NCBI RefSeq assembly: GCF_030408855.1
Contig: NZ_CP047358.1
Location: 124,001 to 188,000, forward strand
Source of the DNA: Corynebacterium glaucum
GTDB taxonomy: Bacteria > Actinomycetota > Actinomycetes > Mycobacteriales > Mycobacteriaceae
Direction: 5' to 3'
Length of the DNA stretch: 64,000 nucleotides
In this document: positions 284 through 61,298 of the stretch, one piece after another
Layout: every line of letters starts with the position of its first letter
Numbering within the stretch: position 1 is the stretch's first letter
Notes under the pieces: generated by a model
Told to the model about the DNA's origin: nothing
The model's input: the letters and a program-made list of their open reading frames with translations, nothing else
Database searches by the model: none
Program-made: the position numbers and the translations under genes

Positions 284-802
284 TTACCCGCGGCGGTTGA
301 GGCGCACGTATTCGTCTTCATTGACGTGCAGTTCAAACCCCGCAGAGGTCGCGTTCTCGTAGGCAAACAGGAACTCCCCGTCGGCCGCCATCAGCTCCCC
401 GTCGCGGTCGTAGACGTCGCCGGCCACAATCGCTTGCTGCCGCTCCGGCAGCAGCGTGCACGCGGTGGTAAACACCTGCGCTCCGCCCGGCGAGTAGGTG
501 AAATTGCACCAGTTCTCGTTCACCGTGACCCGCACCGTATCCAGGTCGCTCGCCTCGTCCTCGCGGTAAAAGTAGGTGCCGGGCGGAATCAGATCGGGGT
601 GGTCGCGGTCAGCGGCCCGCCGCTCGGGGTCACTGTCGGCAAGGGCAGAGGCCCCAGCCCCAGGTCGCTTATCGACGGCCACTTCACCGCCATCCCCATC
701 CCCATCCCCGAATCCGCCACACCCGGCCAGCGTGGCACTCAGCGTGATGCAGATGGCGATCCCAGCCGCCGCCAGCGCCGCAGCTTCGAGGAATCCACGC
801 AA
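284..802 (-). CDS. Putative secreted lipoprotein, unknown function
   Basis: 172-residue protein with a lipoprotein signal: a hydrophobic Ala/Ile-rich segment ends in LAGC (residues 25-28), so Cys28 should be lipidated and the protein held on the outer face of the membrane. A Gly/Asp-rich flexible linker follows. The globular part (about 65-172) contains two cysteines (NWCNF and TTACTL) that could form a disulfide. I do not recognise the family. It starts 4 bp after the ferritin stop, so the two are probably co-transcribed. A link with iron handling is only suggested by position. The linker contains one copy of the recurrent 11-mer, read as VDKR. Confidence 0.7.
   Translation of the reverse strand: MRGFLEAAALAAAGIAICITLSATLAGCGGFGDGDGDGGEVAVDKRPGAGASALADSDPERRAADRDHPDLIPPGTYFYREDEASDLDTVRVTVNENWCNFTYSPGGAQVFTTACTLLPERQQAIVAGDVYDRDGELMAADGEFLFAYENATSAGFELHVNEDEYVRLNRRG
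667..677 (-). repeat. Recurrent 11-mer CGTCGATAAGC, copy 1
   Basis: Exact copy inside the linker of the lipoprotein gene, read in its frame as VDK-R. It is one of 18 identical copies in the window. Confidence 0.9.
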
Positions 803-806
803 GGCG

Positions 807-1304
807 CTAGGAGAGCGTGGTGCGGGTGGACAGGGCGGCGTCGATACGCAGAAGCCCCGAACCGTCGGAACCGACGAGCTGAAGCTGATCGACGATCTCT
901 CCGACCGTGGCTTCCTCTTCGATCTGCTCGTTGAGGAACCAGTTGAGCAGCGCGCGGGACTCTAAGTCGCCGACCTCGTCCGCGATGCGGGTGATTTCGC
1001 GGATCTGCTCCGAAACCTTCTGCTCGTGCACGAGCGCGGCGCGGAACGCGTCGAGCGGGCCGCTGATCTCCGGCGCGTCGATCGCAATCGTGCGCGGCTG
1101 CACGCGCTCGCCGCGGTCGATGAGGTGCTTGGCAAACTTCTGCGCGTGCTCCGTTTCCTCCTGCGCCTGCGCGGTGAACCACGCGCACAGGCCCGGGAAG
1201 GACAGCGCGTCCATCTCGTTGGCCAGGTAGCGGTACACGTAGGCGGCGGCGTATTCCTCGGTGACCTGCTGGGTGATGGCTTCTTTGAGGCGGGGATCAA
1301 TCAT
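807..1304 (-). CDS. ftn: Ferritin (non-haem iron storage protein)
   Basis: 165-residue ferritin of the bacterial FtnA type, forming a 24-subunit cytoplasmic shell that oxidises Fe(II) and stores it as a ferric core. The ferroxidase ligands are all present at the positions seen in E. coli FtnA: Glu17, Glu50, His53, Glu94 and Gln127 (EEYAAAY, QEETEHAQ, VHEQ, NEQIEE). Length is normal for the family. The ATG at 1302-1304 is 11 bp after the stop of the upstream DUF6882-like gene and the lipoprotein gene follows 4 bp downstream, suggesting an operon. Regulation by DtxR would be usual in this genus, but I did not identify a clear operator. Confidence 0.95.
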   Translation of the reverse strand: MIDPRLKEAITQQVTEEYAAAYVYRYLANEMDALSFPGLCAWFTAQAQEETEHAQKFAKHLIDRGERVQPRTIAIDAPEISGPLDAFRAALVHEQKVSEQIREITRIADEVGDLESRALLNWFLNEQIEEEATVGEIVDQLQLVGSDGSGLLRIDAALSTRTTLS

Positions 1305-1315
1305 GTGCCCGGATT

Positions 1316-2707
1316 TTACAGCACCGCGACCTGGCCCCCGGTGACGCTGAGCTGCACCACCTCACCGCTCGGCAGGGTCAGGCTGGGGCGTTTGCTGCTC
1401 TTGCTTAGGGTCAGCTGGCGGTGGTGTGCGTAGGCGCGCAGCGCGCGGTGCACGTCCACGCGCGGCGGCAGCGGCGGGGCTGCCAGGGCCGCGCGCACGC
1501 CGGGCACGGTGATTGGCGGCAGGTTGAACCGCGGCGAGTGCAGCACAATCACTGCGGTCTCACCGCCAGGCAGGTTGAGGTAGTACAGGTGCGTGCCGCG
1601 CTGCATGTGCGCGATGTACGGCATGAGCTGGTACTGCTCGAGCACCACGGTCGGTAGCTCCCCGCGCGTCAGCGATACGATGCGCTCGCGCACGCCCATG
1701 TCGTGCACACCCCGGATGAACTCCAGGGAAGGGTTCGGCTGGCCCTGGTCGTACGTCCAGCCCCACCGGAAGGTCCCATTCGGCAGCAGGTAGCCGGCAA
1801 TTTGCGGCACAAGCTTATCGACGCCCCCATCAACGAACCTCACCTCCGCCTGACGCAAATCATCCGAGAAGGTGATGCCGGCGATGATGCTATTGCAGTA
1901 CGCGCGGTGCTCGTTGAACATGAACCACGACTCGTTGGTCACCCGGATGGGTTCGTTTTCTTCGGTGTCGCGCCGGGCGCTCATCACTGCCGACGCGTGC
2001 GCTCCTGCCGGGCCGGCGCCGGGGCGGTTGAGCACTTCGATCAGCGAGCCGTCGCTCAAGCGCAGCTCATGCATTCCCGGGGCGACGGTCTGGGAGCCCA
2101 CGAGGTGCTCGCCGAGTTGCTTGGCCAGCGTGCTCACCGCCTCCAGCTCGTCCGCGTTCGGCGGCATGACCGTGTGCGCGATAGTGCGGCGCACCACGGA
2201 GCCCACCGGCTCACCGGTCTTCATCAGGTTCGGCAGAACCACGATGACCAGCTGCTCGGCATGGATGTTCGGCAGCGTGTTCGGCAGCGTGTTCGGCAGC
2301 GTGTTGGGCAGCACGATGATCGGGTTGCCGCCGTGGCGCGTCTGCAGCGCCTGAAGAAATGGCGTGGCCAGCGGTTCCTGGAACGGCGCCGGGCGGGTGA
2401 ACTCGGGGATCGGGTTGCCGTTGGAGCCGGCCTGGTTCTGCGAGACAAGTCGGATATGGCCGCCGCTGATGGTCGCCACGATGATGCCCGGGTGGATCTC
2501 GCTGACGCCGACCGAGCTTGTCACCTGCAGGTTGATCGCGATGTCGCCGCCCGGTGTCGGGCCATATTGGTGCACCACCCGGTAGTTCACCGGTTGCGCG
2601 AGGCGCCCGTAGAAGTTCGACGCCGCCAGGAACCGGGTAAATAGGGACAAGCGGCCCTCGCGCAGCAGCGCGGGCGACGGCGCAGGGTAGCCAGGCGCAA
2701 AACTCAT
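1316..2707 (-). CDS. DUF6882-like conserved hypothetical protein
   Basis: 463-residue cytoplasmic-looking protein without signal peptide or membrane segment. The central-to-C-terminal part (about 250-390) contains aromatic motifs such as FRWGWTYDQ and NESWFMF that resemble DUF6882 proteins of actinobacteria; function unknown. Residues of the form LPNT are repeated three times and followed by LPNI (around 135-150), encoded by 12-bp direct repeats at 2271-2312. I chose the ATG at 2705-2707 because a longer reading frame would run back through a terminator and tRNA-Ser. The ferritin gene follows 11 bp downstream. The assignment to DUF6882 is from motif resemblance only. Confidence 0.7.
   Translation of the reverse strand: MSFAPGYPAPSPALLREGRLSLFTRFLAASNFYGRLAQPVNYRVVHQYGPTPGGDIAINLQVTSSVGVSEIHPGIIVATISGGHIRLVSQNQAGSNGNPIPEFTRPAPFQEPLATPFLQALQTRHGGNPIIVLPNTLPNTLPNTLPNIHAEQLVIVVLPNLMKTGEPVGSVVRRTIAHTVMPPNADELEAVSTLAKQLGEHLVGSQTVAPGMHELRLSDGSLIEVLNRPGAGPAGAHASAVMSARRDTEENEPIRVTNESWFMFNEHRAYCNSIIAGITFSDDLRQAEVRFVDGGVDKLVPQIAGYLLPNGTFRWGWTYDQGQPNPSLEFIRGVHDMGVRERIVSLTRGELPTVVLEQYQLMPYIAHMQRGTHLYYLNLPGGETAVIVLHSPRFNLPPITVPGVRAALAAPPLPPRVDVHRALRAYAHHRQLTLSKSSKRPSLTLPSGEVVQLSVTGGQVAVL
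1813..1823 (-). repeat. Recurrent 11-mer CGTCGATAAGC, copy 2
   Basis: Exact copy inside the DUF6882-like gene, read as VDK-L, with the G-rich 5' flank (GGGGG before the core) seen in several other copies. Confidence 0.9.
2271..2312. repeat. 12-bp in-frame tandem repeat in DUF6882-like gene
   Basis: The unit GGCAGCGTGTTC (plus strand) occurs three times nearly perfectly (2271-2282, 2283-2294, 2295-2306), with a partial fourth unit. It encodes LPNT repeats. Copy-number change by slippage would keep the frame. Confidence 0.85.
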
Positions 2708-3031: not shown

Positions 3032-3042
3032 CGTCGATAAGC
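3032..3042 (+). repeat. Recurrent 11-mer CGTCGATAAGC, copy 3 (intergenic)
   Basis: Exact copy in the spacer between tRNA-Ser and the SRP RNA promoter, preceded by a G-rich run. It is outside any gene. Confidence 0.9.
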
Positions 3043-3218: not shown

Positions 3219-4499
3219 ATGGCTACCCCTTTAAACGAGATGAACCCGCAGGAATGTGAGGCGTTGGCCAAAGACGTCCGCGAACGGTACGCCGAGCTGA
3301 AGGCGAAGAACCTGAACTTGGACCTCACCCGCGGCAAGCCGTCGAGCGAGCAGCTGGACTTCTCCCAGGATTTGCTCGCGCTGCCCGGGACGGACAACTA
3401 CCGCGCGAAAGACGGCGTGGACGTGCGCAACTACGGCGGGGTCGACGGCATCGTGGACATCCGCGAGCTGTGGGCGGAGCTTATCGGCGTCGACGCGGAG
3501 AACCTCATCGCCGGCGACGCGTCCTCGCTGAACATCATGTTCGACCTCATCTCCTTCGCGTTCGCGTTCGGCACGAACGACTCGCCGCAGCCGTGGAGCA
3601 AGGAGCCGGGTGCGAAGTGGCTCTGCCCGGTGCCGGGCTACGACCGCCACTTCACCATCACCGAACAGTTCGGGTTCGAGATGGTCAACGTCCCAATGCT
3701 TGCCGACGGCCCTGACATGGACGTCGTCGAAGACCTTGCACGCGACCCGAACGTGAAGGGTATGTGGTGCGTGCCGATCTTCTCCAACCCCACCGGCGTG
3801 ACCTACTCTCGCGAGACGGCTGAGCGCCTCGCGGCGATGGAGACCGGCGCGCCGGACTTCCGCATCGTGTGGGACAACGCCTACGCGGTGCACGCGTTCA
3901 CCGACGAACTGCCGGAGAACCCGAACGTCATCGAAATCGCGGCGGAGAAGGGCAACCCGAACCGTTTCTGGTACATGAGCTCGACGTCCAAGATCACGCA
4001 CGCGGGCGCGGGTGTGGCGTTTTTCGCGTCGTCGAAGGAGAACCTCGACTGGTACCGCTCGATCGCGGGCGTGCGCGGCATCGGACCGAACAAGGAGAAC
4101 CAGCTTGCGCACGCCGCGCTGTTCGGCGACGCGGAAGGGGCGCGTGCGCTGATGCGCAAGCACGCCGGCTCGCTGGCGCCGAAGTTCGAGGCCGTGATCG
4201 GCATTCTGGGCGAGCGGCTCGGCGGCTACGGCGTCGCGGAGTGGACCGAGCCGAAGGGCGGCTACTTCATCTCCCTCGACGTCGTGCCCGGTACCGCGAC
4301 CCGCGTGTGGGAGCTGGCGAAAGAGGCGGGCATCAACCTCACCAAGGCCGGCTCCGCGTTCCCGCACGGCACCGACCCGGACAACCGCAACATCCGGCTT
4401 GCCCCGTCGCTGCCGCCGCTGGACGAGGTCACCGAGGCGATGGACGGCGTCGCCACCTGCGTGCTTCTCGCCGCCATCGAGCACCGAGGTGCCCAGTGA
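3219..4499 (+). CDS. aspT: Aspartate aminotransferase (AspT, actinobacterial subgroup)
   Basis: 426-residue PLP-dependent transaminase interconverting aspartate/2-oxoglutarate and oxaloacetate/glutamate. It belongs to the corynebacterial AspT type (subgroup distinct from E. coli AspC). Visible elements: the N-terminal RGKPS motif, the substrate/PLP region NPTGVTYS (about 193-200), the IVWDNAYAVH Asp-Tyr pair (about 219-228) and the Schiff-base lysine in STSKITHAG (Lys258). The ATG at 3219 is chosen because the upstream extension would run through SRP RNA. The stop overlaps the GTG of the next gene (GTGA), indicating translational coupling. Aspartate made here feeds the LysC/Asd pathway encoded further along. 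Confidence 0.93.
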   Translation: MATPLNEMNPQECEALAKDVRERYAELKAKNLNLDLTRGKPSSEQLDFSQDLLALPGTDNYRAKDGVDVRNYGGVDGIVDIRELWAELIGVDAENLIAGDASSLNIMFDLISFAFAFGTNDSPQPWSKEPGAKWLCPVPGYDRHFTITEQFGFEMVNVPMLADGPDMDVVEDLARDPNVKGMWCVPIFSNPTGVTYSRETAERLAAMETGAPDFRIVWDNAYAVHAFTDELPENPNVIEIAAEKGNPNRFWYMSSTSKITHAGAGVAFFASSKENLDWYRSIAGVRGIGPNKENQLAHAALFGDAEGARALMRKHAGSLAPKFEAVIGILGERLGGYGVAEWTEPKGGYFISLDVVPGTATRVWELAKEAGINLTKAGSAFPHGTDPDNRNIRLAPSLPPLDEVTEAMDGVATCVLLAAIEHRGAQ

Positions 4500-5038
4500 C
4501 AGGTAACGAGCTCCTTGCATGGATCGACACCATTTTCCCGGGCATTGAGCTTTCGCTTGTCGACGACTCCGCCGTCGCCACCAGCACACACCAAGACCTC
4601 CCCGTTGCTGTGACGGTCGGGTTCTCCACGGTTGATACTGGGCTCCGCCTGGAGGCGGATCCGAGCACACTCGTGGGGTGTGAATTGGCGGTCAAAGGTG
4701 GCGTCGATAAGCAATTGCTCGCGCAAACCGCAATTGAAGCGACCCGGATCATCAACTCCTTCGGGATTCCTGCGCAGCCTGGGGTGCTTTTGGAGAACCT
4801 GTTTTCCAATGTCGAGCTGCCGCCGGGCGCGACCGTGGGGCACGGGTTCTTGCGCGAGCCGGACCTGTTTTACAAGGGCACGCCCGTGCACCCTGAGGAG
4901 GGGAAGCTGACCGTGCTGCTGGAGCTGGTGGCGCTGACGGATACGGAGTATCGGATTGCGTCTGAGCAGGGCGTGGAGATTTTGAAGCAGCAGCTGCGGC
5001 GGCGCAGCGTGGACATTACGGATTGGTTCAGGGGCTAA
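4496..5038 (+). CDS. Suppressor-of-fused-like domain protein (tentative)
   Basis: 180-residue soluble protein starting at a GTG that overlaps the aspT stop by 3 nt; dnaX begins 3 nt after its own stop, so it sits in an aspT-dnaX operon. The C-terminal half (motifs DLFYKG, LLELVALTDTEYRIASEQG, then a short helical end) resembles the bacterial suppressor-of-fused (SUFU-like, PF05076) fold, often found as immunity-type or unknown proteins. The resemblance is weak. No membrane segment is present. One recurrent 11-mer is read here as VDKQ. Confidence 0.65.
   Translation: MTGNELLAWIDTIFPGIELSLVDDSAVATSTHQDLPVAVTVGFSTVDTGLRLEADPSTLVGCELAVKGGVDKQLLAQTAIEATRIINSFGIPAQPGVLLENLFSNVELPPGATVGHGFLREPDLFYKGTPVHPEEGKLTVLLELVALTDTEYRIASEQGVEILKQQLRRRSVDITDWFRG
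4702..4712 (+). repeat. Recurrent 11-mer CGTCGATAAGC, copy 4
   Basis: Exact copy in the SUFU-like gene, read as VDK-Q. Confidence 0.9.
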
Positions 5039-5041: not shown

Positions 5042-7720
5042 GTGGCGCTGTACAGGAAGTATCGGCCGGCGACGTTTGGCGAGCTGGTTGGCCAGGAGCA
5101 GGTGACACGCCCGCTGTCGACAGCGCTGGATAACGGCCGGATCGCGCATGCGTACCTGTTTTCGGGGCCGCGCGGGTGCGGCAAGACGTCGTCGGCGCGC
5201 ATTCTGGCGCGGTCGCTGAACTGTGTGGAGGGGCCGACGTCGACGCCGTGCGGGGTGTGCGCGTCGTGCGTGGCGCTGGCGCCGGGCGGGCCGGGCAACC
5301 TGGACGTGATGGAGTTGGACGCGGCATCGCACGGCGGTGTGGACGACATGCGTGAGCTGCGCGAGCGTGCGATGTTCGCGCCGGCGGATTCGCGCTACCG
5401 CGTGTTCATCATCGACGAGGCGCACATGATCTCCGCCGCCGGCAACAACGCGCTGCTGAAGATTGTGGAGGAGCCGCCGGAGCACCTGATCTTTGTGTTC
5501 GCGACGACCGAGCCGGAGAAGATCCTGGGCACGATCCGTTCGCGCACGCACAACTACCCGTTCCGCCTGCTGGCGCCGGCCGCGATGCGCGAGCTGCTCG
5601 AGCGCGTGGTGGCGGAGGAGGGCGTGTACGTCGACGAGAACGTCCACCCGCTGGTGATTCGCGCTGGCGGCGGGTCGCCGCGCGACACGCTGTCGATCCT
5701 GGACCAACTGCTTTCCGGCGCGGGGGCGGACGGACTGACCTACGAGCTGGCGCTGCCGCTGTTGGGTGTGACGGACCTGTCGCTGTTGGACGCGGCAGTG
5801 GACGCGATCGCCGACGGCGACGCTTCCGCCACCTTCCACACCATTGACGCCGTCATGGAGTCCGGCCACGAGCCGCGCCGTTTTGCCACCGACCTGTTGG
5901 ATCGACTGCGTGACTTGCTGATCATCCGCACCGTGCCAGATGCGTTCGGGCAAGGCCTTGTCGACGCCCCCGTCGACCGCGCCGAAATCCTGCGCGCTGA
6001 AGCCGCGCGTTTTAGCCCCGCTCAGCTCGCAGATCTGGCGACCGAGGTCAACGACCGCGTCTCCGATCTACGCGGCGCGACCTCGCCGCGGCTGCTGCTC
6101 GAGGTGATGATGGCCCACCTGCTTACGCTCCCCTCGGGCGCCGGCGCCGGCGCCGACACCAGCGCGACCGGGGCCGCTGTCAGCTCTCCCGCTGTCAGCT
6201 CTTCCGCTGGCACCGCCACCCATTCCGGCTCCGCAGTCACTCGCGGCTCAGGCGGGGCGGCGGCCGCCGCTGCGGCGGCAGCGGCTGCAGCGGCCGCAGG
6301 TCGCGGGGTGCGCAGTTCTTCAACACCCGCCGCTCAGGCGCCGCAGCAGACCGCACTGCCGCAGCAGACCGCGCCAGCCACATCGACGGCGGCGAAACCC
6401 ACACCGGAACCGGAACCGGAGCCGCAGCCCGACTTCGAGCCGGGGCAACCTCCCGCGCCGGAACCGTCCCGTTCTGAGCCCGCGCCCGCCCCGGCGATGA
6501 CTCCACCGGTCGCGCCTGCCGCACCCGCAGAGCCAGCAACGCACGCCGAGCTGGCAACGCACGCCGAGCTGGCAACGCACGCCGAGTCGGGAGGGCAAGC
6601 CGAGCCCGACGATCGGGCTCAAGCGATCGACGACACCTACAAGGACGCTCCGACACCGGATCGGGCTGAACCGACACCCGCGCAGTCGCCTGCATCGGCA
6701 CCCAGCGAGGAGCTCGGAGATGTCGAACACACTCCGCAAACAGCTGACGGCGCGGCTGCGGCGGAGAACATGGCTCCAGCTGACGAGACCGCGACCACAG
6801 GCGAAGCATCCACAGGCGAAGCATCCACTGACGGAGAATCCACCGGCGGAGAATCCACGGAGGCGCCTTCCGCGACCGAGGCCCCGGCTGCTCAGGATGC
6901 GGGTGCAGATGTGGGAGAAGCGACCGGGGATGTCGGCGAGTTCGATGGGGATGCGCTGTTCCACCGCATAGAGCGGGATTGGACGACGCTTCGTCAGTCG
7001 GTGGGCGCGCGGAACAAGGTCGCCGAGATCATGCTCACCGAGGCACGCCCGCTCGGCTTTGACGGCGCGACCTTGGTGCTCGGCCACAACACTGGGGCGC
7101 TGGCGGGCCGCATCAACGCCGAAAACAACAACGCAGACATCGTCGCGGTGCTCTCGGAGAAGCTGGGTGCGCAGATTGGGGTGCGGTGTGTGGTCGGCAC
7201 TGATCCGGCCGCCGCGAACGTCCGCGCGCCCGAGCGCAAGGCAGTGTGGAACCCGGGCAAACCCGAAGTCGCCGGGCGCACTGAGAGCGGTGGGCGCACT
7301 GCGCGCGGCGGGAATGCTGCGGCCAACTCGGGTGACGCGGAGGGCGCGGATCAGCCTGACGACCCTGCGCCGGCACCTGCACCGGCGAAGTCACCCGCGC
7401 CCAACGACTGGCGGTCGGCAGCCCAAGCAGCGGCGCAGGCAGCCAGCCAGCAAGCCGCGGCTAAAGCAAAGCGGGACAGTGAAGAAATCCCGCCCCCACC
7501 GGAGCCCATTGACGACGAACCCCCGTACGACCCCTGGAATGGGGATGAAGGGGGGAGCGGTGGGGCGTCGATAAGCGAAGCAAAGCCCTACTCCCAAGAG
7601 GACGAGGAGCGCGACATGGCTGACCAGGCTGAAGCCGAGGAAGGGGAGCGCGATCGCCGCGACGCGACGCAGGTGGCGATGGAGCTGCTGGCGAGCGAGC
7701 TCGGCGCGAAACCGCTGTAG
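5042..7720 (+). CDS. dnaX: DNA polymerase III subunit gamma/tau
   Basis: 892-residue clamp-loader subunit; the GTG start begins VALYRKYRP, typical of the family. AAA+ ATPase: Walker A GPRGCGKTS (42-50), a four-Cys zinc module (Cys61, 70, 73, 76), DEAH box (125-128) and the sensor/Arg-finger region TIRSRTH (about 160). Domain III follows to about 360. Then comes a long low-complexity linker (about 365-635) rich in Ala/Pro/Glu/Thr, including a 13-Ala run near 400 and three ATHAE repeats near 500. A tau-specific polymerase-binding-like domain lies at about 640-725 (LFHRIERDW). The Ala/Pro/Glu-rich C-terminal tail carries a recurrent 11-mer read as ASIS. I saw no slippery sequence for a frameshifted short form. 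Confidence 0.95.
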   Translation: MALYRKYRPATFGELVGQEQVTRPLSTALDNGRIAHAYLFSGPRGCGKTSSARILARSLNCVEGPTSTPCGVCASCVALAPGGPGNLDVMELDAASHGGVDDMRELRERAMFAPADSRYRVFIIDEAHMISAAGNNALLKIVEEPPEHLIFVFATTEPEKILGTIRSRTHNYPFRLLAPAAMRELLERVVAEEGVYVDENVHPLVIRAGGGSPRDTLSILDQLLSGAGADGLTYELALPLLGVTDLSLLDAAVDAIADGDASATFHTIDAVMESGHEPRRFATDLLDRLRDLLIIRTVPDAFGQGLVDAPVDRAEILRAEAARFSPAQLADLATEVNDRVSDLRGATSPRLLLEVMMAHLLTLPSGAGAGADTSATGAAVSSPAVSSSAGTATHSGSAVTRGSGGAAAAAAAAAAAAAAGRGVRSSSTPAAQAPQQTALPQQTAPATSTAAKPTPEPEPEPQPDFEPGQPPAPEPSRSEPAPAPAMTPPVAPAAPAEPATHAELATHAELATHAESGGQAEPDDRAQAIDDTYKDAPTPDRAEPTPAQSPASAPSEELGDVEHTPQTADGAAAAENMAPADETATTGEASTGEASTDGESTGGESTEAPSATEAPAAQDAGADVGEATGDVGEFDGDALFHRIERDWTTLRQSVGARNKVAEIMLTEARPLGFDGATLVLGHNTGALAGRINAENNNADIVAVLSEKLGAQIGVRCVVGTDPAAANVRAPERKAVWNPGKPEVAGRTESGGRTARGGNAAANSGDAEGADQPDDPAPAPAPAKSPAPNDWRSAAQAAAQAASQQAAAKAKRDSEEIPPPPEPIDDEPPYDPWNGDEGGSGGASISEAKPYSQEDEERDMADQAEAEEGERDRRDATQVAMELLASELGAKPL
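6536..6588 (+). repeat. 18-bp tandem repeat in dnaX linker
   Basis: Nearly three units of an 18-bp repeat encode ATHAEL-ATHAEL-ATHAES. They lie in the unstructured linker of DnaX, close to a GCN-rich poly-Ala tract (6255-6300). Confidence 0.85.
7566..7576 (+). repeat. Recurrent 11-mer CGTCGATAAGC, copy 5
   Basis: Exact copy in the low-complexity C-terminal tail of dnaX, with GGGG flank, read as ASIS with a rare ATA isoleucine codon. Confidence 0.9.
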
Positions 7721-8871: not shown

Positions 8872-9599
8872 AACCCGCCCTCAGTCGCTTCGTCCACGGC
8901 GTCCTCGATCAGAAAGTCCATGTCGTTGAGGAACGCCGTCACGCTGACCTGCGACGAATCCACGCCCGCCACCCGCAGCGGACCAAGCGTGACAAAGTCG
9001 ATCCACTTGTCGCCGACCGGCGCCAGCGACAGGTCCTCGATCGCGGTGATGAAGTTGTCGCGGTACGCGCCCAGCAGCTGGCGGTGCGCTTCGGTGCCCA
9101 GGTCGTTCCACGGCGCGCCGACTGAAATCCAATCCAGCCCGATGCATTGCACGTGCGTTTCCGTCGCCAGCCATTTGCACAGCTCCGGGTCGAGGCACGG
9201 CCCTTCCTCCTGGTAGACCTGCGGGTTCTCGCTGCGGTAGCGCTCGAAGCCGGTCCGGATCAGCAGCAGCCGAATGCCGTCAAACTCGCTTGCGTAGGGT
9301 TCGATGTCCTCAACGGTCAGGATCGATTTGGGCTTGCTTTTCGACGGCACGTCCACCAGCAGCACCTCATCCCCGTCAAAGTTGAACCGTTCAGGGCCAA
9401 GTTCTGCGATGGTCACGCCGTCGGGAACAAAGTGGCGCGGCGCGTCCATGTGCGTGCCGAAGTGATTTGGCAGGGTGCTGAGAAAGCTGTTCGCATCGCC
9501 GTCTTCACCGATCACCGTGCGTTGGGTGGTCTCGAGTTTCGGGGTGCCGGGGTAGGCGGGGCCGTTGGGTTCAAGGATGTGGCTCAAGTGCACGTACAT
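8868..9599 (-). CDS. Cyclase family protein (KynB-like, PF04199)
   Basis: 243-residue metal-dependent hydrolase of the arylformamidase/cyclase family. The signature [12 protein letters not shown] (about 46-57) supplies His/Asp metal ligands; a second conserved block [12 protein letters not shown] follows near 160. The substrate is not predictable from sequence; family members hydrolyse formylkynurenine or act in polyketide or isatin metabolism, and no kynurenine genes are nearby. The ATG at 9597-9599 (MYVHLSHI) matches the usual family start; a 10-residue extension is possible. Its 3' end overlaps the recR stop tail-to-tail. Confidence 0.85.
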
Positions 9600-12853: not shown

Positions 12854-12864
12854 GCTTATCGACG
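12854..12864 (-). repeat. Recurrent 11-mer CGTCGATAAGC, copy 8 (intergenic)
   Basis: Exact copy in the 40-bp spacer between the Pro-rich membrane protein stop and the DnaQ-like start, with the long GGGGG flank. Confidence 0.9.
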
Positions 12865-22365: not shown

Positions 22366-24676
<2,311 letters not shown>

Positions 24677-52104: not shown

Positions 52105-52831
52105 CGACGGCCATGACAAACGCCGTCGGGTCCTCCACATGCGGCAGCGCGAGCTGCGCAATCGGCCCGTCTAAGTCGCTGTCCTGAGCCGTAAAGGGGC
52201 GCAACCGCGATGCGGCGACAATGTGTGAGAGCGCGTTGTCTATGCGGCGGGCTGCGAGGCGCAGCGCCAGGTGCTCCTGAAAGTCCTGTGATGCGTGAAA
52301 TGCGTCGCTGGTTTCTGCCACAAAGTTGGCCCGCCAGATCGAGTCGAGTGCGCGCTCGCTTAGGCTGAGCAGCGGCGCTGGCAGCCTGGTTAAGGCGGCA
52401 GGGAACCCGCTCGAAGTGGGGAGTGAGATCACCTGGTGGATCAGCTCGTTGTGGCGCTTCGCCGCTGCCTTAGCAATTACTGACCCGGTGTCTGCACCCA
52501 CGACGGCCGCGCGGGTGTGGCCGAGGGTGCGAATGACGCCTTCCACGTCACCGGAGAGGATCTGCAACGTGTCGCCGGCGCGGTGCGGGGGCTTGTCGGA
52601 CATCCCGAAGCCGCGGGCATCAAGGGCCGCGACGTGGAGGCCATGGGCCGCAAGCGGCGCGATGGCATCTTTGAAGTCGAACCACCCCCCGAAAGCGCCG
52701 TGGATAAGCAGGATCAGTGGGTCACCCCGATTGCCAGCCTCCGCAACGTGGAGCCGGGTGCCGCGGGTGTGCAGCATCCGGTGGTTGAAGTCGCCCTCAA
52801 GCTCGACGACGTTAGGCGGGTGGGGCGCCAC
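52085..52831 (-). CDS. Alpha/beta hydrolase with Asp nucleophile (epoxide hydrolase-like)
   Basis: 248 residues. Oxyanion motif LIHGAFGGW, nucleophile elbow VVGADTGSV with Asp (as in epoxide hydrolases and dehalogenases, not Ser), and catalytic His in LALPHVEDP near the C-terminus, with only ~18 residues after it. The substrate is unknown. Its 3' end overlaps the marP end by 20 bp. Confidence 0.85.
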   Translation of the reverse strand: MAPHPPNVVELEGDFNHRMLHTRGTRLHVAEAGNRGDPLILLIHGAFGGWFDFKDAIAPLAAHGLHVAALDARGFGMSDKPPHRAGDTLQILSGDVEGVIRTLGHTRAAVVGADTGSVIAKAAAKRHNELIHQVISLPTSSGFPAALTRLPAPLLSLSERALDSIWRANFVAETSDAFHASQDFQEHLALRLAARRIDNALSHIVAASRLRPFTAQDSDLDGPIAQLALPHVEDPTAFVMAVVKLLDL

Positions 52832-54481: not shown

Positions 54482-54603
54482 ACATCAGCAGTGTAGACCG
54501 TTATCCACACAAGAATTAGTGACAAATCTCCGAAACGGCCGAGTTATCCACAGTTTGGAGACGGGCCCTTGCCGTTTATGTTTCGTTCGTGCACGCTAAG
54601 TGC

Positions 54604-55632
54604 ATGACACAAACGCAACTAACAAATCCACGCCCGGCTCCGATTCTCGTCGCGGTCGATGATCCGTTGTTGCACCCGGAGGCCCTGCACATAGCCGCCG
54701 CCTGCGGAAGGCCAGTGGTTGAGGTCAGCGATGAGGTGCAGCTCGCTCGCATGCAGCCAAAAGCATTCGCTTCGCTTATCGACGGCTCCTTGGGTCCGCC
54801 CACCCCAACCCCAACCACCTTTGTCATCACCGCGTCTCCGGGCGCAGCACCACCCGGTGCGTTTGTGCTGCCCGCCCAGGCCGCTGATTTGCTTCGCGCC
54901 CTCGGAGCGCTTTCACTGCGCGGTGAACCGGATCCTGCGGCTGCGGGTGCGGTCATCGCGGTGGTCGGTGCCGCGGGTGGTGCCGGCGTGTCCACCCTTG
55001 CAGCGGCTGTGAGTGCCCGCGCGGGTGCAGGCAGCGTGCTTGTTGATGCGCATCCGCGTTCCGGGGGTCTCGATCTATTACTGGGGATTGAGGAAGTACC
55101 GGGTGCTCGTTGGGGCGAGATCGAACTCGGGGAGGGGGTCATTGCTCGCGGGGATTTGCTGCGTGCGCTGCCTTCAACTGACGCGCAGGTCGCGGTGCTC
55201 ACGGTCGCCCGCACCACGATTGTCGATCCGTTCCCACTCCGCGCCGAGGACGTCGACGCTGCCGTGGCCGCTTGCGCGTCGGACGGGGTGACGGTGATCG
55301 ACGCCCCTGTCAGCGCAATCCCTCCTCGTTGCGATCTCGCGGGCATTGTTGTGCCCGCACAGCTGCGCCCGGCTGCCGCAGCGGCGGCAATCGTTGCCCA
55401 GTGCGATGCAGCCGGCATCGCCCACGGCCTCATCGTGCGCGACTGCGCGTGGGCGTCGCTGAATCAGAGTGAGCTTGAACGCGTAACGGGATCCCGAGTG
55501 CTCGCCAGGTTGCGCACCTGCCGCGGTCTGGCACGCACCATCGAACGCGGAGGGTTGCCAGCGAGGTTGCCCCGGCCGCTTGCCCACGCTGCCGACGCGG
55601 TGCTCGCCGAGGCCACGCGAGGTGCGAGATGA
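54604..55632 (+). CDS. ssd: Septum-site-determining/CpaE-like ATPase (Ssd, TadZ-like)
   Basis: 342 residues. N-terminal pseudo-receiver region (VAVDDPLLHPEALHIAAACG) and a MinD/ParA-like ATPase domain with deviant Walker A GAAGGAGVSTLAAA (about 124-137), lacking the usual Lys, as in Ssd proteins. It likely positions the Tad apparatus, and Ssd overproduction affects division in mycobacteria. The ATG overlaps the next gene (ATGA). A recurrent 11-mer is read as SLIDG. Confidence 0.88.
   Translation: MTQTQLTNPRPAPILVAVDDPLLHPEALHIAAACGRPVVEVSDEVQLARMQPKAFASLIDGSLGPPTPTPTTFVITASPGAAPPGAFVLPAQAADLLRALGALSLRGEPDPAAAGAVIAVVGAAGGAGVSTLAAAVSARAGAGSVLVDAHPRSGGLDLLLGIEEVPGARWGEIELGEGVIARGDLLRALPSTDAQVAVLTVARTTIVDPFPLRAEDVDAAVAACASDGVTVIDAPVSAIPPRCDLAGIVVPAQLRPAAAAAAIVAQCDAAGIAHGLIVRDCAWASLNQSELERVTGSRVLARLRTCRGLARTIERGGLPARLPRPLAHAADAVLAEATRGAR
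54774..54784 (-). repeat. Recurrent 11-mer CGTCGATAAGC, copy 16
   Basis: Exact copy in the linker region of ssd, read as SLIDG. Confidence 0.9.
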
Positions 55633-56765
55633 CCAACCCAGTGAACGACATCGCAATTCTCGAGCGCGTCCAACGCCGCATCGCCGACGAGCCGGAGCCA
55701 CCCGGCCCTGAGCGCCTTGCCCACCTTATCCGCGAGGAAGCGGTAGTGATCAGTGATATCGACGTACTCGACATGATGCGCAGGCTACGCGAAGATACGA
55801 CCGGAGTTGGCCCCCTCGAAACGCTCTTGCTGGGCGGCGAAGTCACCGACATCTGCGTCAACGGGCCGGATGAGATCTTCATCGATCGAGGTCGAGGCCT
55901 CGAGCCAGTTGCCGATCGCCCCTTCGCAACCGACGCGGATGTTCGCCGACTCGCTACCCGCCTTGCGCTCAATTGCGGGCGCAGGCTTGACGACGCCCAC
56001 CCCTACTGCGATGGCCACCTCACCCGCCCAGACGGCACCTTGCTGCGCTTCCACGCGGTGGTTGCTCCCACGTCGCAGCCGGGCACCTGCATCTCGCTGC
56101 GCGTGCTGCGCACTGCCACCGCTAGCTTGGAAGATCTGCAGCGCCGTGGAGCGATCGATGCCGAGCGTGCCGCACTGCTGTGCAAGTGCGTCCGGGAAAG
56201 AAAAAGCGTCCTTGTTGTCGGTGGCACCGGTTCAGGTAAGACCACGCTGTTGTCCGCGCTCCTAGCTGAGGTCGATCCTGCTGAGCGGATCATCGCTATC
56301 GAGGACACCCGCGAACTCACCCCGGCTCATCCGCATGTGCTGAACCTAAGCACCCGCGGGGCAAACACGGACGGCGCTGGCGAGATCACTGTCGCCGACC
56401 TGGTCCGTCAGGCGCTGCGAATGCGCCCGGACCGCATTGTGGTCGGAGAAATTCGCGGGGCGGAGGTCATCGACCTGCTCGCCGCGCTCAACACCGGCCA
56501 CGATGGGGGCGGCGGCACACTCCACGCGAACTCCATCGGGGAGGTCCCCGCGCGCCTCGAGGCACTCGCCGCGCTCGGCGGGCTCGACCGAGCCGGGCTC
56601 CACGCCCAACTAGCGGCCGCAGTAGATCTGATCGTCGTGGTGAAACGCCACCCTGACGGCCAACGTCGCGTGGAGCAAATCGGCGTACTTGAGGGCCAGC
56701 CAGTGAACGCCCGCGTGGTCTGGGATGCAACCACCGGCCCAGCTGAAGGGTACGAGGAGTTGTGA
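55629..56765 (+). CDS. tadA: Tad pilus assembly ATPase (TadA/CpaF)
   Basis: 378 residues, secretion-ATPase of the VirB11/GspE superfamily. Walker [10 protein letters not shown] (about 198-206), Asp box AIEDTREL, Walker B ([12 protein letters not shown]) and the His-box-like [14 protein letters not shown]. Powers Flp pilus extension. It overlaps ssd by ATGA and the next gene by TGATG. Confidence 0.95.
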
Positions 56766-57535
56766 TGGCCAGTATCCCCCTCGCTGCATGCTGCCTGGCA
56801 GGTGCTGCGCTCATGCAGCCCCCGCGTCCGATGATTCGTATCCGCGCCGCCGCTCTCGGAAACCGGAATCCAGCGTGGATTCCCGCCACCGTCGCTGTGG
56901 TGGCCATCGCCGCCTTTGCTTTCGATAAAGCGGGTGTGGTCATCGCGGCCGCGCTCGCTGCTGCGACAGCGGTGCACATGGTGAACAGCCGCAGAAAGGA
57001 TCGCGACGCAGCAGCCGGGACTCGCGCCGCCGCAGATTACATTGGCCACCTCGCTGAAAGTGTTGGCGCTGGAGCGACGTTCACTGATGCGGCGAGACGC
57101 GCCGCGGACCGCCTCAGCAATGACACCTCCTCCATCCGCCGTGATGCCCTAAACATCGCGAACGCCTCCGCAAGTGGCAGCGCGGTCCCCGAACTGATAA
57201 CTCCCGAGCTCAAACGCGTTGCTTCCCTGTGGGCACTTTCCGCTACCCGTGGAATCCCCGTCAAAGGCCTGCTCGCCAACGCCCGCGATGAAATCGATCA
57301 CGCCGTGCGGCACCGGACCGCCACTGACGCTGCGCTGGCTGGCCCGAAGACCACCGCGACGGTGCTGTCGTTGCTCCCATTGGCGGGGATCGCGATGGGG
57401 AGTGCAATGGGTGCTAACCCAATTGATTACCTCACCGGATCTGGGATCGGGGCAGTGCTGCTCGTTGTCGGGACTGCGTTAGTCTGCGCAGGAGTCCTGG
57501 TGTCCCATGAGATCATCCGGAGGGCCGCCGCATGA
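56765..57535 (+). CDS. tadB: Tad pilus inner-membrane protein, TadB-like
   Basis: 256 residues. N-terminal membrane segments (about 38-72), cytoplasmic T2SSF-type helical domain (about 85-195), and two C-terminal transmembrane helices (about 200-250). Probable platform protein for pilus assembly, sharing overlaps with tadA and the TadC-like gene (ATGA). Confidence 0.85.
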
Positions 57536-58092
57536 TCTCGACGCTCACCACGTTGCTCTTCGCCGCGGCGATTGCGCTGCCACCCACCGCGCCTAAGCAT
57601 CGACTCCCTGCGCGCCGACCCGAGCGGACCAAGAACCCCCGCGATGGTCCGCAGGGGTTCAACCTCAACCGATGTGCCAGTGACCTCCGCCTCTTCGCCG
57701 CTTGCGCCCAGGCGGGGTTGCCCCCGCCGCATGCGGCCGCCGCAGTCGCAGATACCTACGCCGGGGAGGCACATCCATGGCATACCACTGCCGCGTTGTT
57801 GGCGCTCGGGGCCGAACCCGAGCGCGCTTGGTCGGAACTCGCCAGCGTCCCTGGCGGCGCCGACCTGGCCAGTCTTGTCACTTTGTCCAACTCCTCCGGC
57901 ACCTCGCTTTCAGCTGGGTGCGTGCGGATTGCGGAGCGTCTCCAAGCAGAAGCCGCAGACCGCGCCACCGCGAAAGCAGAACGTGCCGGGGTCCTCATTG
58001 CAATCCCGCTTACCGCATTTTTCCTGCCCGCGTTTTTCACCCTCGGGCTGGCTCCCGTGGTGATCAGCTTGGGCAGCGAAATGCTCAACTAG
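57532..58092 (+). CDS. tadC: Tad pilus inner-membrane protein, TadC-like
   Basis: 186 residues, a short T2SSF-type protein. A membrane N-terminus and Arg/Pro-rich segment precede a helical domain (LRLFAACAQAGLPPPHAAAAV, ...) and a C-terminal membrane helix (about 155-182). Partner of the TadB-like protein; overlaps it by 4 nt. Confidence 0.82.
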   Translation: MISTLTTLLFAAAIALPPTAPKHRLPARRPERTKNPRDGPQGFNLNRCASDLRLFAACAQAGLPPPHAAAAVADTYAGEAHPWHTTAALLALGAEPERAWSELASVPGGADLASLVTLSNSSGTSLSAGCVRIAERLQAEAADRATAKAERAGVLIAIPLTAFFLPAFFTLGLAPVVISLGSEMLN

Positions 58093-58155
58093 CAACCCAT
58101 CGACAACAACTCACAACAGCAACCCACAACAACTTCTCACGAAAAGGAAACCACC

Positions 58156-58386
58156 ATGAACCGCATCCAACTCACCGCAATCTCCGCATACGAATCCACG
58201 CTGCGCGCCGGCTCCCGCATGGTTGCCAAACTCGGCAATGACGAGGGAATGTCGACCATTGAATACGCCTTTGGGTCACTGGCTGCCGCCGCGCTGGCCG
58301 GGGTGCTCTACCTCGTGGTCAACGGCAACGGTGTCACCACCGCGATCGAGAAAGTAATCACCGACGCGCTGAACAACCGTCCGTAA
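58156..58386 (+). CDS. Flp-type pilin (DUF4244)
   Basis: 76 residues. A hydrophilic leader of ~31 residues ends in DEGMSTIEYAF: cleavage after Gly and the Glu5-Tyr6 pair of Flp pilins. A hydrophobic helix of ~25 residues and a short C-terminal end follow. It is likely the major pilin. ATG follows AAAAGGAAA. No prepilin peptidase gene is seen in this locus. Confidence 0.87.
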   Translation: MNRIQLTAISAYESTLRAGSRMVAKLGNDEGMSTIEYAFGSLAAAALAGVLYLVVNGNGVTTAIEKVITDALNNRP

Positions 58387-58656
58387 ATGACCACCATCGA
58401 AACAGCGCTCTCGCTAGCGACACTGGTTACTGTCGCCGCCGCGATCGTGGCGGGCATTGCCACCATAGCAGCGTACATTTCGGCGGTGGACATCGCAGGT
58501 GCGACAGCACGCGCTGCTGCGATCGGTGTGACGTATGAGCCGCCTCGCGGCAGCGTCAGCGTCGTAGAGCAAGCTGGCCTGGTGACTGTCACCGCGTCGG
58601 TACCGGCGGCGATTGGCACGATGCAGGCGTCTGCAATCTATCCGGTGGAGTTTTAG
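58387..58656 (+). CDS. TadE-like minor pilin
   Basis: 89 residues, starting directly after the pilin stop (TAAATG). Begins MTTIETALSLATL, a prepilin-like helix with Glu at the expected position but practically no leader, then a short beta-rich end. It fits the TadE-like pseudopilin family. Confidence 0.75.
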   Translation: MTTIETALSLATLVTVAAAIVAGIATIAAYISAVDIAGATARAAAIGVTYEPPRGSVSVVEQAGLVTVTASVPAAIGTMQASAIYPVEF

Positions 58657-58950
58657 ATGAGCACGGTCACGTCCGCCGGCATCGCCGCCTCCGTCATTGC
58701 GCTCGCAGTAGGGGTCGCTGCTGTCGGCGCTCAAGTGGCGGACTCGCACCGGAGCCAGGTCGCAGCGGACCTGTCTGCGGTGTCCGCAGCGACCGCGCTT
58801 TACCAGGGGGCTGATGCTTGTGACGTGGCGGCACGCACTGCTGCGCTTAACGGTGCCGCGGCTCAATCTTGCGACATAGTTGACGGGGATGTGCGCGTCA
58901 CTGTCAGCTTCCGTCGTGCGGAAGCCACCGCCCGCGCTGGTCCCGCTTAG
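58657..58950 (+). CDS. TadE/TadF-like protein (Rv3654c family)
   Basis: 97 residues, ATG directly after the preceding stop. N-terminal membrane helix (about 5-27), then an Ala-rich helical stretch (SQVAADLSAVSAATAL) and Cys residues (DACDVA, SCDIV) that could form a disulfide. It ends the Tad operon; its stop overlaps the convergent helicase stop by 4 nt. Confidence 0.75.
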   Translation: MSTVTSAGIAASVIALAVGVAAVGAQVADSHRSQVAADLSAVSAATALYQGADACDVAARTAALNGAAAQSCDIVDGDVRVTVSFRRAEATARAGPA

Positions 58951-61298
58951 TTCGCGTCTTCACCCGCCGTCATAGTGACAAGCGCACCGAGCAACTTCAG
59001 CGCGGCGTGCTTGTCCAACGGTTGGTTGCCGTTGCCGCACTTAGGCGAATGCACACACGACGGGCAGCCGTCGTCGCAACCGCACGCGCGCACTGCTTCG
59101 TACGTGGCGGTGATCCACTCGTGAAAGCGGGCAAATCCTTCGTCGGCGAATCCTGCGCCCCCGGGGTGGCCGTCGTAGACAAACACGGTCGGCAGCAGCG
59201 TGTCTTGGTGCAGGGCGGTGGAAACCCCGCCGATGTCCCACCGGTCACACGTGGCCAAAAGCGGCAAGAGTCCGATCGCGGCGTGCTCGGCGGCGTGCAG
59301 CGCGCCGGATACCTCGCCCGCGGCAATGCCCATCGCTTCCAGCGCAAGCGGGTCGATGGTGTAGGCGACTGCGCGGGTGATCAGACGCTGCTCGGGGAGG
59401 TCGAGTGGGATGTGCTCGCTGACGGTGCCGTCGGCAAGGCGCACCACGTAGCCGGTCACCCGGTCGATCACCTCGACATCCACACTGGCCACCCACAACC
59501 CCGGCGACGGGTTTACCAACTCGCTCGGCTCGCCCAGCAGGGTGATGTCGGTGGTGGAGCGGGCCTGGGTGGAGTAGTCGGGCTGCTCCGGTACCACCAG
59601 CGCAACGTAGTCGTCCAGGTCGAGTTCCTGCACCACGAAGTACTCGCCCTGGTGCAGGTAGACGGCACCGTCGTGCACCTGGCTCATCGCTTTGCCCGCA
59701 TCAACGGTGCCCAAGAGCCGCCCGTCGGTGACGTCCACAATCGCCACTTCCTGGCCAGCACCGCCGCGAAGCGACACCGCTGCATGCGCCGTCTCCGGGC
59801 GCAGATCGCCCTCGAGCTGCGGCACCGCGAACCACCGATCGCCGCGTTGACGCAGGAAACCACCCGCAGTCAGCTCAGCGACGACCTCGTCAGCGTCAAA
59901 CGCCGTGACGTCACCGCGTGTCAGCGGGCGTTCGACGGCCGCGCAGTACATGTGCCCGCGCAGGATGTAGGGATTGTGCGGATTGAACACGCTGTTTTCC
60001 ACCGGCTTGCCCAGCAATGCCTCCGGGTGATGCACCAGGTAGGTATCCATCGGGTCGTCGCGGGCGACCATCACCACCACCGCATGTTGCCCGCGCCGAC
60101 CCGCGCGCCCCGACTGCTGGCGAAACGACGCCACCGTGCCCGGGAACCCCGCCATCACTACGGCGTCCAAACCACCCACGTCGATCCCCAGCTCCAGCGC
60201 GTTTGTGGTCGCCATGCCAAGCAGCTCGCCTTCATCTAAAGCCCGCTCAAGCGCACGGCGATCCTCGGCGAGGTACCCCGCCCGGTACGAGGCGACGCGC
60301 TTCGCGAAATCGGGCCGCCCCTGCAGCACCAGCTCCTCCTGCGCGCGCATCGCCACCGTTTCCGCAGCGCGCCGGGAGCGCACGAAGGTCAGGGTGCGCG
60401 CACCGTCGGCGATCAGCTTCGCCATCACACCTGCGGCTTCGGTGGTCGCCGCGTAACGCACCGGCGCCCCGTTCTCGCCTTCCGCGTCTTCAATGAACCC
60501 CGGTTCCCACAGCGCAATCGTGCGTTCGCCGGTCGGCGCGCCGTCGGTAGTCACCGCCACCACGTCGCGCCCGCACAGCCGCGAGGCCTGCCCGGCCGGA
60601 TCGGCCGCCGTCGCAGACGCGAAGATCAACGTCGGGTGCGCGCCGTACGCTGCGGCGATGCGCAGCAGCCGCCGCTGCACCAGCGCCACGTTCGCGCCAA
60701 ACACACCGCGGTACGTATGGCACTCGTCCACCACCACATACTCCAGGTTTCGCAGCAGCCGCGCCCACCGTGCATGCCCAGCGAGAATCCCCGCGTGCAG
60801 CATGTCCGGGTTCGTGAACACGTACCGCGTGTGCTCGCGAATCCCGGGCCGGGCCTCGGCGGGCGTGTCACCGTCGTAGGGAGCAGGGTGGACATTGCTT
60901 ATCGACGCCCCTTTGACCATGCCCAAGGTCGCCTGCAACTGATCCGACCCCAACGCTTTCGTGGGCGTGAGATACATCGCGCACGCCGTCGGATCGGCGG
61001 CCAGCCGAGACAGCACCGGAAGCTGGTAGCCGAGCGACTTGCCCGACGACGTCCCCGTTGCGATGACCACATCGCGTCCTTGCCACGCCAGCTCGGCACA
61101 CTGCGTTTGGTGTGTGAAAGGGCGGGTGATGGAGGCGTCGATAAGCACTTGCTTCAAGCTGGGCGCAACCCATAGGGGCCACTCGCCGTAGTGGGCGGGG
61201 GAGGCGGGCACCGTTTCCACGTGCGTGATGGTGGAGGTGGGGAAGCGGGCGCGAAGTGAGGTAAGGAGCTCTTCGCCGAAAAATCCACTGCCATCCAT
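58947..61298 (-). CDS. DEAD/DEAH-box helicase with DUF1998 (Hrq1/YprA-like)
   Basis: 783 residues. Walker [12 protein letters not shown] (about 81-91), Walker [10 protein letters not shown], helicase C motifs [15 protein letters not shown] and [10 protein letters not shown]. The C-terminal DUF1998 module carries four Cys ([14 protein letters not shown]). Similar to the MrfA/YprA-type helicases implicated in DNA crosslink repair; function here inferred. Two 11-mers lie close together near its 5' end. Confidence 0.92.
60897..60907 (-). repeat. Recurrent 11-mer CGTCGATAAGC, copy 17
   Basis: Exact copy in the helicase gene, GGGG flank, read as GASIS with ATA. Inverted pair with copy 18, about 230 bp apart. 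Confidence 0.9.
61136..61146 (+). repeat. Recurrent 11-mer CGTCGATAAGC, copy 18
   Basis: Exact copy in the helicase gene on its non-coding strand, read as VLIDA. Confidence 0.9.

Follow-up and report, generated by a model that had tools for sequence, protein, structure and literature searches.

A gapped motif with several dialects in Corynebacterium genomes, a candidate DNA uptake sequence

To our knowledge, uptake sequences are known only from two families of Gram-negative bacteria, the Neisseriaceae and the Pasteurellaceae. The DNA uptake sequence (DUS) of Neisseria reads GCCGTCTGAA (PMC6370729), and eight DUS dialects that act as barriers are described in the Neisseriaceae (PMC3630211). 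The uptake signal sequence (USS) of Haemophilus has a core with AT-tracts, and its genomic spread can be modelled by biased uptake alone (PMC7811141). Transformation of Micrococcus luteus depends on tad genes, and the combination of tad with comEA/EC is described as frequent in actinobacteria (PMC4322843); the terms "uptake sequence" and "foreign DNA" are absent from that paper's text. Here we analyze a stretch of 64,000 nucleotides of the Corynebacterium glaucum genome (the window; positions 124001-188000 of a single contig of 2,529,320 bases), in which the gapped motif CGTCG-NN-AAGC, most often spelled as the 11-mer CGTCGATAAGC, is repeated far beyond expectation. Judging from sequence comparisons, we put the probability that this motif is the DUS/USS of the genus Corynebacterium at about 65%.

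The matches listed for open-licence PubMed Central papers included none describing such a motif or uptake sequences for Corynebacterium, nor any describing uptake sequences for Gram-positive bacteria; the original observation, too, knew of no such signature described for the genus. The 3 papers that contain the 11-mer and the 2 that contain its reverse complement are, by their titles and the beginnings of their abstracts, unrelated to genome motifs.

The repeated unit and its placement

The 18 copies of the 11-mer listed for the window all lie exactly where they had been placed, 10 on the plus and 8 on the minus strand. A chance expectation of 0.02-0.03 copies had been calculated from an assumed G+C content of about 65%; the measured content is 64.8%, and 100 dinucleotide shuffles of the window gave a mean of 0.03 copies and a maximum of 1. 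The whole genome holds 508 copies (263+245) against 1 for the reversed control, far above expectation. The over-represented word is thus real, but the true unit proved to be the gapped motif CGTCG-NN-AAGC (CGTCGNNAAGC), of which the 11-mer is the commonest spelling. In a 464-kb sample of the genome, consisting of the window and 20 further stretches, variants of the 11-mer with one changed base occur 0 to 9 times each outside bases six and seven, whereas changes at those two bases yield 49 copies of CGTCGACAAGC and 4 to 20 of the others (counted on stretches joined end to end, with chance words possible at the 20 joins). Because variants are common at the sixth and seventh base alone, we take CGTCG-NN-AAGC as the unit. 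The spacers most used in the sample are AT (108), AC (49), TC (31), GC (24), and AA (20). Two near-matches named earlier both belong to the gapped motif, although the one assigned to position 11071 really occupies 11073-11083.

In the window, 46 copies of the gapped motif stand against about 2 (2.0) expected from the frequencies of the motif halves, and a blind scan of nine-base words with gaps of 0 to 4 returned CGTCG-NN-AAGC as the top word. Genome-wide, there are 1,554 copies (784+770), or one per 1.6 kb, against 103 (57+46) for the reversed control. The 464-kb sample contains 314 gapped motifs, 108 of them perfect 11-mers, compared with 29 copies of the reversed pattern and an average of 5.9 (maximum 44) for 300 letter-shuffled gapped patterns.

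The absence of orientation bias noted for the window extends to the chromosome, where the strands carry 784 and 770 gapped motifs (p 0.74). The contig begins with dnaA and dnaN and hence at its origin end. With the terminus assumed to lie opposite the origin, 146 sites in the 21 sampled stretches run along replication and 168 are opposed to it (p 0.24), and a skew reversing between replichores, of the type seen with FtsK-orienting polar sequences (KOPS), is absent. The sites are under-dispersed (index 0.75 over 116 bins of 4 kb), with 25 gaps below 200 bp against 40 expected, and their density is 0.23 per kb in low-GC genes compared with 0.90 per kb. Two sampled stretches, 1530001-1550000 and 2010001-2030000, hold 6 gapped-motif sites each per 20 kb, with site-free gaps of 9.9 and 7.7 kb, respectively, and are candidates for newly acquired islands.

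The flanks of the copies share a base preference and no common sequence. Counting the first core base as 0, G occupies position -2 in 76% of the 108 perfect 11-mers, which bears out the G-rich 5' flank described earlier; a G-rich stretch continues to about -30, with A at -7 and -6, and R-A-A follows at +11 to +13. In 11-mers called intergenic, A reaches 89% at +12 and 78% at +13, and several of these copies read CGTCGATAAGCGAAAAGCTC. Sequence logos of the 108 and 314 sites and of relatives show a strong core with softer extended flanks, and the G-rich left arm with its G at -2 is found in all seven genomes drawn, which cover both of the main dialects described below (it is weakest in G070, except at -2). 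For the G-tracts, a helical phase was considered and rejected: their peaks, at -2, -5, -11, -14, -17, and -20, are multiples of three apart and therefore fall on the wobble positions of antisense sites, so no phasing of 10-11 bases is claimed.

Called genes contain 81 of the 108 perfect 11-mers (75%; the coding share of the sample is 82%), 47 antisense and 34 sense. All but 2 of the 47 antisense copies lie in one frame, the sense copies use two frames (25 and 9 of 34), and none falls in the frame that would place TAA in frame. All six combinations of frame and orientation occur among the gapped-motif sites, and 50 of the 314 are called intergenic; 194 of the 264 coding sites are antisense against 70 sense (p 1e-14), the favored frame being antisense Leu-(NNC)-Asp (178/264). 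These coding fractions are approximate, as they come from a home-made codon-model gene caller, which missed tadZ. When synonymous codons were shuffled within the genes of the sample, 3.1 copies (standard deviation 1.7) of the 11-mer were expected against 81 observed, and 19.6 (standard deviation 3.9) of the gapped motif against 259, so the excess survives a codon-preserving model.

Dialects, origin, and conservation of the sites

We counted the motif in 242 genomes of the genus, two of them from the species of the window, with cut-offs set by eye at the gap in the counts (at least 195 copies for dialect 1 and at least 159 for dialect 2). Dialect 1, the spelling CGTCGNNAAGC, is carried by 171 of the 242 genomes in 195 to 1,964 copies divided roughly equally between strands. 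The remaining 71 have 8 to 134 copies, at or near control and up to 4.3-fold above it in G170; G170 and G178 (115 and 127 copies, about 4 times control) were counted as lacking dialect 1. Seventeen of these 71 genomes carry dialect 2, CATCG-NN-AAGC (CATCGNNAAGC), in 159 to 1,184 copies against controls of 6 to 27, and their dialect-1 counts are at or near control. The dialect-2 word occurs 52 times in the window's own genome and 25 to 80 times in six other dialect-1 genomes. Dialects 1 and 2 thus exclude each other where both were counted, in the 71 genomes without dialect 1 and 7 with it. Related genomes carry the motif, with a spelling that differs by species.

One genome, G012, has its own word, CGCG[AG]CGTCA, in 1,106 copies against a control of 27, with the extended form CGCG[AG]CGTCAT(C)A at loci L189-L191; it represents either a separate dialect or a separate system. 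The same word reaches at most 84 copies in the other 53 genomes without dialects 1 and 2. A candidate third dialect, GTGGCGTCG, has an A-rich right side and exceeds its control at least 2-fold in 14 of the 54 genomes lacking both main dialects, and at most 5-fold (517/103 in G230 and 556/151 in G049); small samples left its core unsharpened. In G007, G018, G049, G058, G142, and G230 it exceeds its reversed control 3- to 5-fold; A-rich sequence follows it in some of them, and it may be a looser third dialect. Scans of 40-80 kb found no gapped motif of such build in G043, G131, G232, and others, but a blank scan is no proof of absence because dialect 2 escaped the same scan in G027 despite its 736 copies there.

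Elsewhere in the family (140 genomes representing 30 other genera), the gapped motif stays near control, with a largest excess of 2.7-fold. A set of named genomes was picked through matches to a 14-base version of the motif, which also produced single chance matches in many other taxa; all 13 Corynebacterium genomes in it are enriched, although they are not an independent sample because they were chosen by motif matches, and none of the 8 others is comparable (the highest is Singulisphaera, with 318 against a control of 177). Corynebacterium pollutisoli has 1,582 copies (824/758 by strand; control 37/26), followed by C. stercoris (1,558), C. gottingense (1,476), C. tapiri (1,118), C. pacaense (810), and C. 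lowii (727).

Repeats of other kinds were also seen in relatives. In G018 (loci L192-L194), sequences around GGAGC....GGAG and CCGGGTGCTCCA are strongly repeated locally; they are not the motif studied here and probably belong to a repeat protein or a repeated element. The perfect palindrome CTGGCCGGCCAG lies at three places in 40 kb of G002 (loci L153-L154). In G049, nine copies of TTATCCACA, which we take to be DnaA-box-like, occur in 20 kb (L211, C1:400001-420000) and none in L212, perhaps marking the contig's replication origin.

To follow sites to orthologous places, tblastn pairs with sampled stretches of 30 relatives were used (142 pairs), and 72 alignments span a coding site. Within six residues on each side, 59 of the 72 are ungapped, compared with 607 of 692 at random positions; a gap lies near 13 of 72 sites against 85 of 692 random positions (p 0.19), and 10 of the 13 gapped alignments are with relatives lacking both main dialects. 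Because the gap rate near sites does not differ from that at random positions, the sites are not insertions, and they arise by point substitution at tolerated places. The sites in this test and in the strain comparison below were selected as intact in their own genome. Conservation at the orthologous place is partial: of 26 pairs with relatives of the same dialect, 7 keep the motif, compared with 7 of 252 random positions (p 6e-5). Among 12 dialect-2 ortholog pairs, 1 has the dialect-2 word at the site and 1 the dialect-1 word; at one such place our genome reads GCTTATCGACG and the dialect-2 genome G027 reads GCTTGTCGATG.

A strain of the same species, G061, aligns over 218 kb and is 2.59% different. 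The nine fixed core bases differ at 6 of 1,296 positions and the two spacer bases at 7 of 288 (p 0.004), so that core bases vary five times less than spacer bases; the outer flanks differ at 228 of 10,224, and the flanks overall at 1.9-2.4%. The number of sites kept is 138 of 144, and 138 of 144 again when counted from G061, compared with 192 of 1,311 letter-shuffled control words, selected in the same way, that changed (p 2e-4). Up to 30 bases from a site, counting the core, divergence is 1.7%; it rises to 3.3% at 1.5-2.5 kb and is 2.7% beyond, a trend that site-free islands could cause in part. The density of single-nucleotide polymorphisms between the strains is mosaic (223 bins; 0 to 161 per kb; index of dispersion 55), which is what frequent recombination would leave.

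Sites in the window and candidate uptake genes

Several of the 18 sites spelled CGTCGATAAGC lie within open reading frames (ORFs): 667-677 (-) in ORF 284-682 (-), 1813-1823 (-) in ORF 1316-2707 (-), 4702-4712 (+) in ORF 4496-5038 (+), 7566-7576 (+) in ORF 5270-7720 (+), 10115-10125 (+) in ORF 9669-10475 (-), 12562-12572 (+) in ORF 11759-12823 (-), 21019-21029 (+) in ORF 20384-21355 (-), 21473-21483 (-) in ORF 21425-22273 (-), 39131-39141 (-) in ORF 38352-41534 (+), and both 60897-60907 (-) and 61136-61146 (+) in the helicase ORF 58947-61298 (-). The site at 54774-54784 (-) is inside tadZ, the gene missed by the caller, which had labelled this copy intergenic. Copies at 12854-12864 (-), 20319-20329 (-), 42587-42597 (+), and 48699-48709 (+) are called intergenic, 28557-28567 (+) lies between convergent ORFs, and 3032-3042 (+) is intergenic, upstream of the signal recognition particle (SRP) RNA. 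At the Rfam gathering threshold, the SRP RNA and a tRNA were the only matches in the window.

The other gapped-motif sites carry different spacers. CGTCGACAAGC is found at 4555-4565 (-), 11073-11083 (+; one of the two near-matches), 30467-30477 (-), 34900-34910 (-), and 42982-42992 (-); the other near-match, at 18018-18028 (-), is spelled CGTCGTTAAGC. CGTCGGCAAGC occurs at 3698-3708 (-), 32833-32843 (+), 34117-34127 (+), 37930-37940 (-), and 49834-49844 (-), and CGTCGTCAAGC at 18309-18319 (+), 24289-24299 (-), 26830-26840 (+), 31266-31276 (+), 52099-52109 (-), and, inside tadA, 55985-55995 (-). Two sites each are spelled CGTCGAAAAGC (9336-9346, -; 37192-37202, +), CGTCGAGAAGC (21804-21814, +; 26421-26431, -), and CGTCGGTAAGC (32752-32762, +; 47128-47138, -). 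Single sites are CGTCGCCAAGC at 11373-11383 (-), CGTCGTAAAGC at 17461-17471 (+), CGTCGTGAAGC at 20662-20672 (+), CGTCGCGAAGC at 35215-35225 (-), and CGTCGGGAAGC at 44706-44716 (+).

The window also contains a Tad/Flp pilus operon at 54589-58950 (+), which itself holds the motif sites at 54774 and 55985. Its first gene, at 54589-55632, encodes a TadZ-like protein of 347 amino acids with no Pfam match; the name rests on its place before tadA and on matches there in relatives, which are weak or missing in some, where the fetched stretch begins near tadA. It is followed by tadA, the pilus ATPase (55629-56765; 378 amino acids; PF00437 T2SSE, 1.7e-49), tadB (56762-57535; 257 amino acids; PF00482 T2SSF, 3e-5, at 24.4 bits under the curated cut-off of 25.2), and tadC (57532-58092; 186 amino acids; PF00482 T2SSF, 4.5e-11). 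Next come a Flp prepilin-like DUF4244 protein (58156-58386; 76 amino acids; PF14029, 1.9e-20), a TadE-like minor pilin candidate (58387-58656; 89 amino acids; no Pfam match), and a TadF/TadG-like minor pilin candidate (58657-58950; 97 amino acids; PF13400 Tad, 0.028, below the cut-off). Of 12 fetched relatives with dialect 1 or 2, all 12 have a match to the TadE-like candidate at the same place (weak in G070, E 0.018) and 11 a match to the TadF/TadG-like candidate. A DEAD-box helicase gene with an MrfA zinc-binding domain (PF09369; 58947-61298, -) adjoins the operon on the opposite strand. Elsewhere in the genome lie comEC (L185:7913-9529, -) and comEA (L185:9526-10224, -).

Of the 242 genomes of the genus, 241 have a ComEC match and 238 a Flp pilin match, and ComEA was matched in all 80 genomes tested for it (weakly in G128, G177, and G185). 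Presence or absence of this machinery was rejected as a correlate of the motif: ComEC, Flp pilin, and ComEA are nearly universal, and none discriminates. A weak or missing T2SSF match (E >1e-6 or none) does track the lack of both main dialects (23/31 versus 31/211, p 3e-11), but because the cut-off was self-chosen and the pattern, tallied by hand with kinship uncorrected, is confounded with kinship, we do not count it as independent evidence; a main dialect is nevertheless present in 8 of these 31 genomes (dialect 1 in 6, dialect 2 in 2).

Competing readings and comparison with known systems

Dialects combined with a lack of strand polarity characterize DNA uptake sequences. We favor the uptake-sequence reading, and the motif appears to match DUS/USS on nearly every feature that sequence can address. 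The resemblance to uptake sequences rather than to Chi or KOPS, as first proposed, seems strengthened by the genome count, the relatives, the codon shuffles, the strand balance, and the orthologs. Beyond the motif, its numbers, dialects, origin by substitution, and conservation, and the machinery genes, all of which the sequences show, we infer preferential uptake, a receptor, and molecular drive. In the proposed tag, the bipartite core CGTCG-NN-AAGC, with its G at -2, would be flanked by about 30 G-rich bases on the left and by an A-rich arm on the right. Cells would bind free tagged DNA, most likely through a Tad/Flp pilus protein or ComEA, and the bound DNA would be pulled in through ComEC and recombined into the chromosome. 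Because tagged DNA would be taken up preferentially, tagged alleles would spread by biased uptake (molecular drive), which would fill tolerated positions on both strands with tags and keep the tags intact. A change of receptor in a lineage would lead to a genome-wide respelling, a dialect, and the DNA of other species would therefore be disfavored. We lean toward the fuller view that Corynebacterium is naturally transformable, that Tad/Flp-based uptake reads the gapped tag, and that changes of spelling, whether a G-to-A substitution of the second base or replacement of the whole word as seen in G012, have split the genus into groups preferring their own DNA.

Several observations weigh against the uptake-sequence reading. 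No report of natural transformation in Corynebacterium was found among the matches listed for open-licence PubMed Central papers. When a single fixed base of the gapped motif is changed, few copies are found (0 to 40 for each variant against 314), so decay products are rarer than would have been guessed, and the left arm, which differs from G061 at 80 of 4,320 positions, is not clearly conserved beyond the outer flanks. The lower site density in low-GC genes fits depletion in newly arrived DNA but also plain base composition. Neither main dialect is present in 54 of the 242 genomes, and 53 lack all three words. Because the machinery is nearly universal in the genus, it permits the motif without predicting it, and whole-looking Tad operons are found in the dialect-less G043 and G131. 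Two genomes lack a T2SSF or Flp pilin match yet carry a dialect: G171, with 1,535 dialect-1 copies (100% complete, 30 contigs, 2.4 Mb), and G156, with 213 dialect-2 copies (99%, 70 contigs, 2.4 Mb). The Tad operon may have been lost recently or fall into a gap of the assembly, or the motif may be independent of Tad; the less complete G168 and G189 also lack both matches, and G198 lacks T2SSF. A by-eye comparison of the Tad operons of 20 relatives found no receptor covarying with dialect; minor pilin candidates were present, and no dialect-specific feature was singled out.

Chi and KOPS are over-represented short words, usually strand-polarized, and known Chi sites are 5-8 bases long. A Chi-like recombination hotspot, at which an AdnAB/RecBCD-type helicase-nuclease would read the motif, stop degradation, and start recombination, would account for a motif that is frequent, mostly in genes, conserved, and surrounded by lower divergence. 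We consider it unlikely, as strand polarity is missing both genome-wide and by replichore, some 45 patterned bases with a free two-base gap are long for Chi, and a motif missing or respelled within one genus is not expected of a repair enzyme's signal; regulation of AdnAB by Chi is described as unknown (PMC4824097). The even spacing, the use of both strands, and the purifying selection on the nine core bases would also suit a chromosome-structuring or marking site at which an abundant DNA-binding protein, such as a nucleoid-associated protein or a methyltransferase, recognizes CGTCG-NN-AAGC. That dialects switch as a block speaks weakly against this, and so, just as weakly, does the presence of 1 dialect-1 copy and no dialect-2 word in 87.5 kb of two Corynebacterium phages, whose host dialect was not tested; this explanation is likewise improbable.

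The high copy number, taken alone, could suggest a dispersed mobile or repetitive element resembling repetitive extragenic palindromic sequences or miniature inverted-repeat transposable elements, or else a repeated protein motif. The flanks without common sequence, the mostly ungapped orthologous alignments, the use of all six frame and orientation classes, and the 50 sites called intergenic leave almost no room for this. We regard as equally implausible a by-product of codon usage or composition, which the favored Leu-(NNC)-Asp frame and the antisense excess might suggest but the synonymous shuffles contradict, and a transcription terminator or regulatory site. Among the 314 sites, only 5 have an opposite-strand neighbor within 60 bp, leaving almost no inverted-repeat pairs, and the 27 11-mers called intergenic lie between 14 tandem, 8 divergent, and 5 convergent gene pairs.

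Should the motif indeed be an uptake sequence, it would represent the first such system outside the Neisseriaceae and Pasteurellaceae, evolved independently: a third origin, in a Gram-positive genus of which many species have been sequenced. Whether uptake sequences serve as a species barrier, result from molecular drive, or are a by-product of the receptor has long been debated, and the question would become testable in some 190 genomes that span three or more dialects. Many corynebacteria might be transformable with tagged DNA, which would be useful for harmless and industrial species, and the motif would help in the search for the DNA receptor of Tad/Flp pili.

Compared with known systems, the Corynebacterium motif resembles Chi and KOPS in being over-represented along the chromosome but lacks their strand polarity. 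With M. luteus, the window's genome shares comEA, comEC, and tad genes, although M. luteus is without TadZ and a tadZ-like gene is present here (PMC4322843). The likeness to the USS of the Pasteurellaceae includes a short strong core with softer tracts that span about 30 bases, copies that show no general preference for either chromosome strand but are unequally oriented inside genes, two spellings in one family, and a majority of copies in ORFs (65% of USS in Haemophilus influenzae and 75% of the 11-mers here); the USS flanks are AT-tracts, whereas those here are G-rich on the left and A-rich on the right, and the location bias toward gene ends reported there is not evident here (PMC7811141, PMC2346458). 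The DUS of the Neisseriaceae differs in sequence and phylum from the Corynebacterium motif, which has a gapped core with long G-rich and A-rich arms and almost no inverted-repeat pairs; DUS uptake involves a type IVa pilus, whereas the genes here are of the Tad/Flp type, with no counterpart of ComP identified. What the two have in common are thousands of copies, dialects conserved within species and differing among relatives, and a link between uptake and pili.

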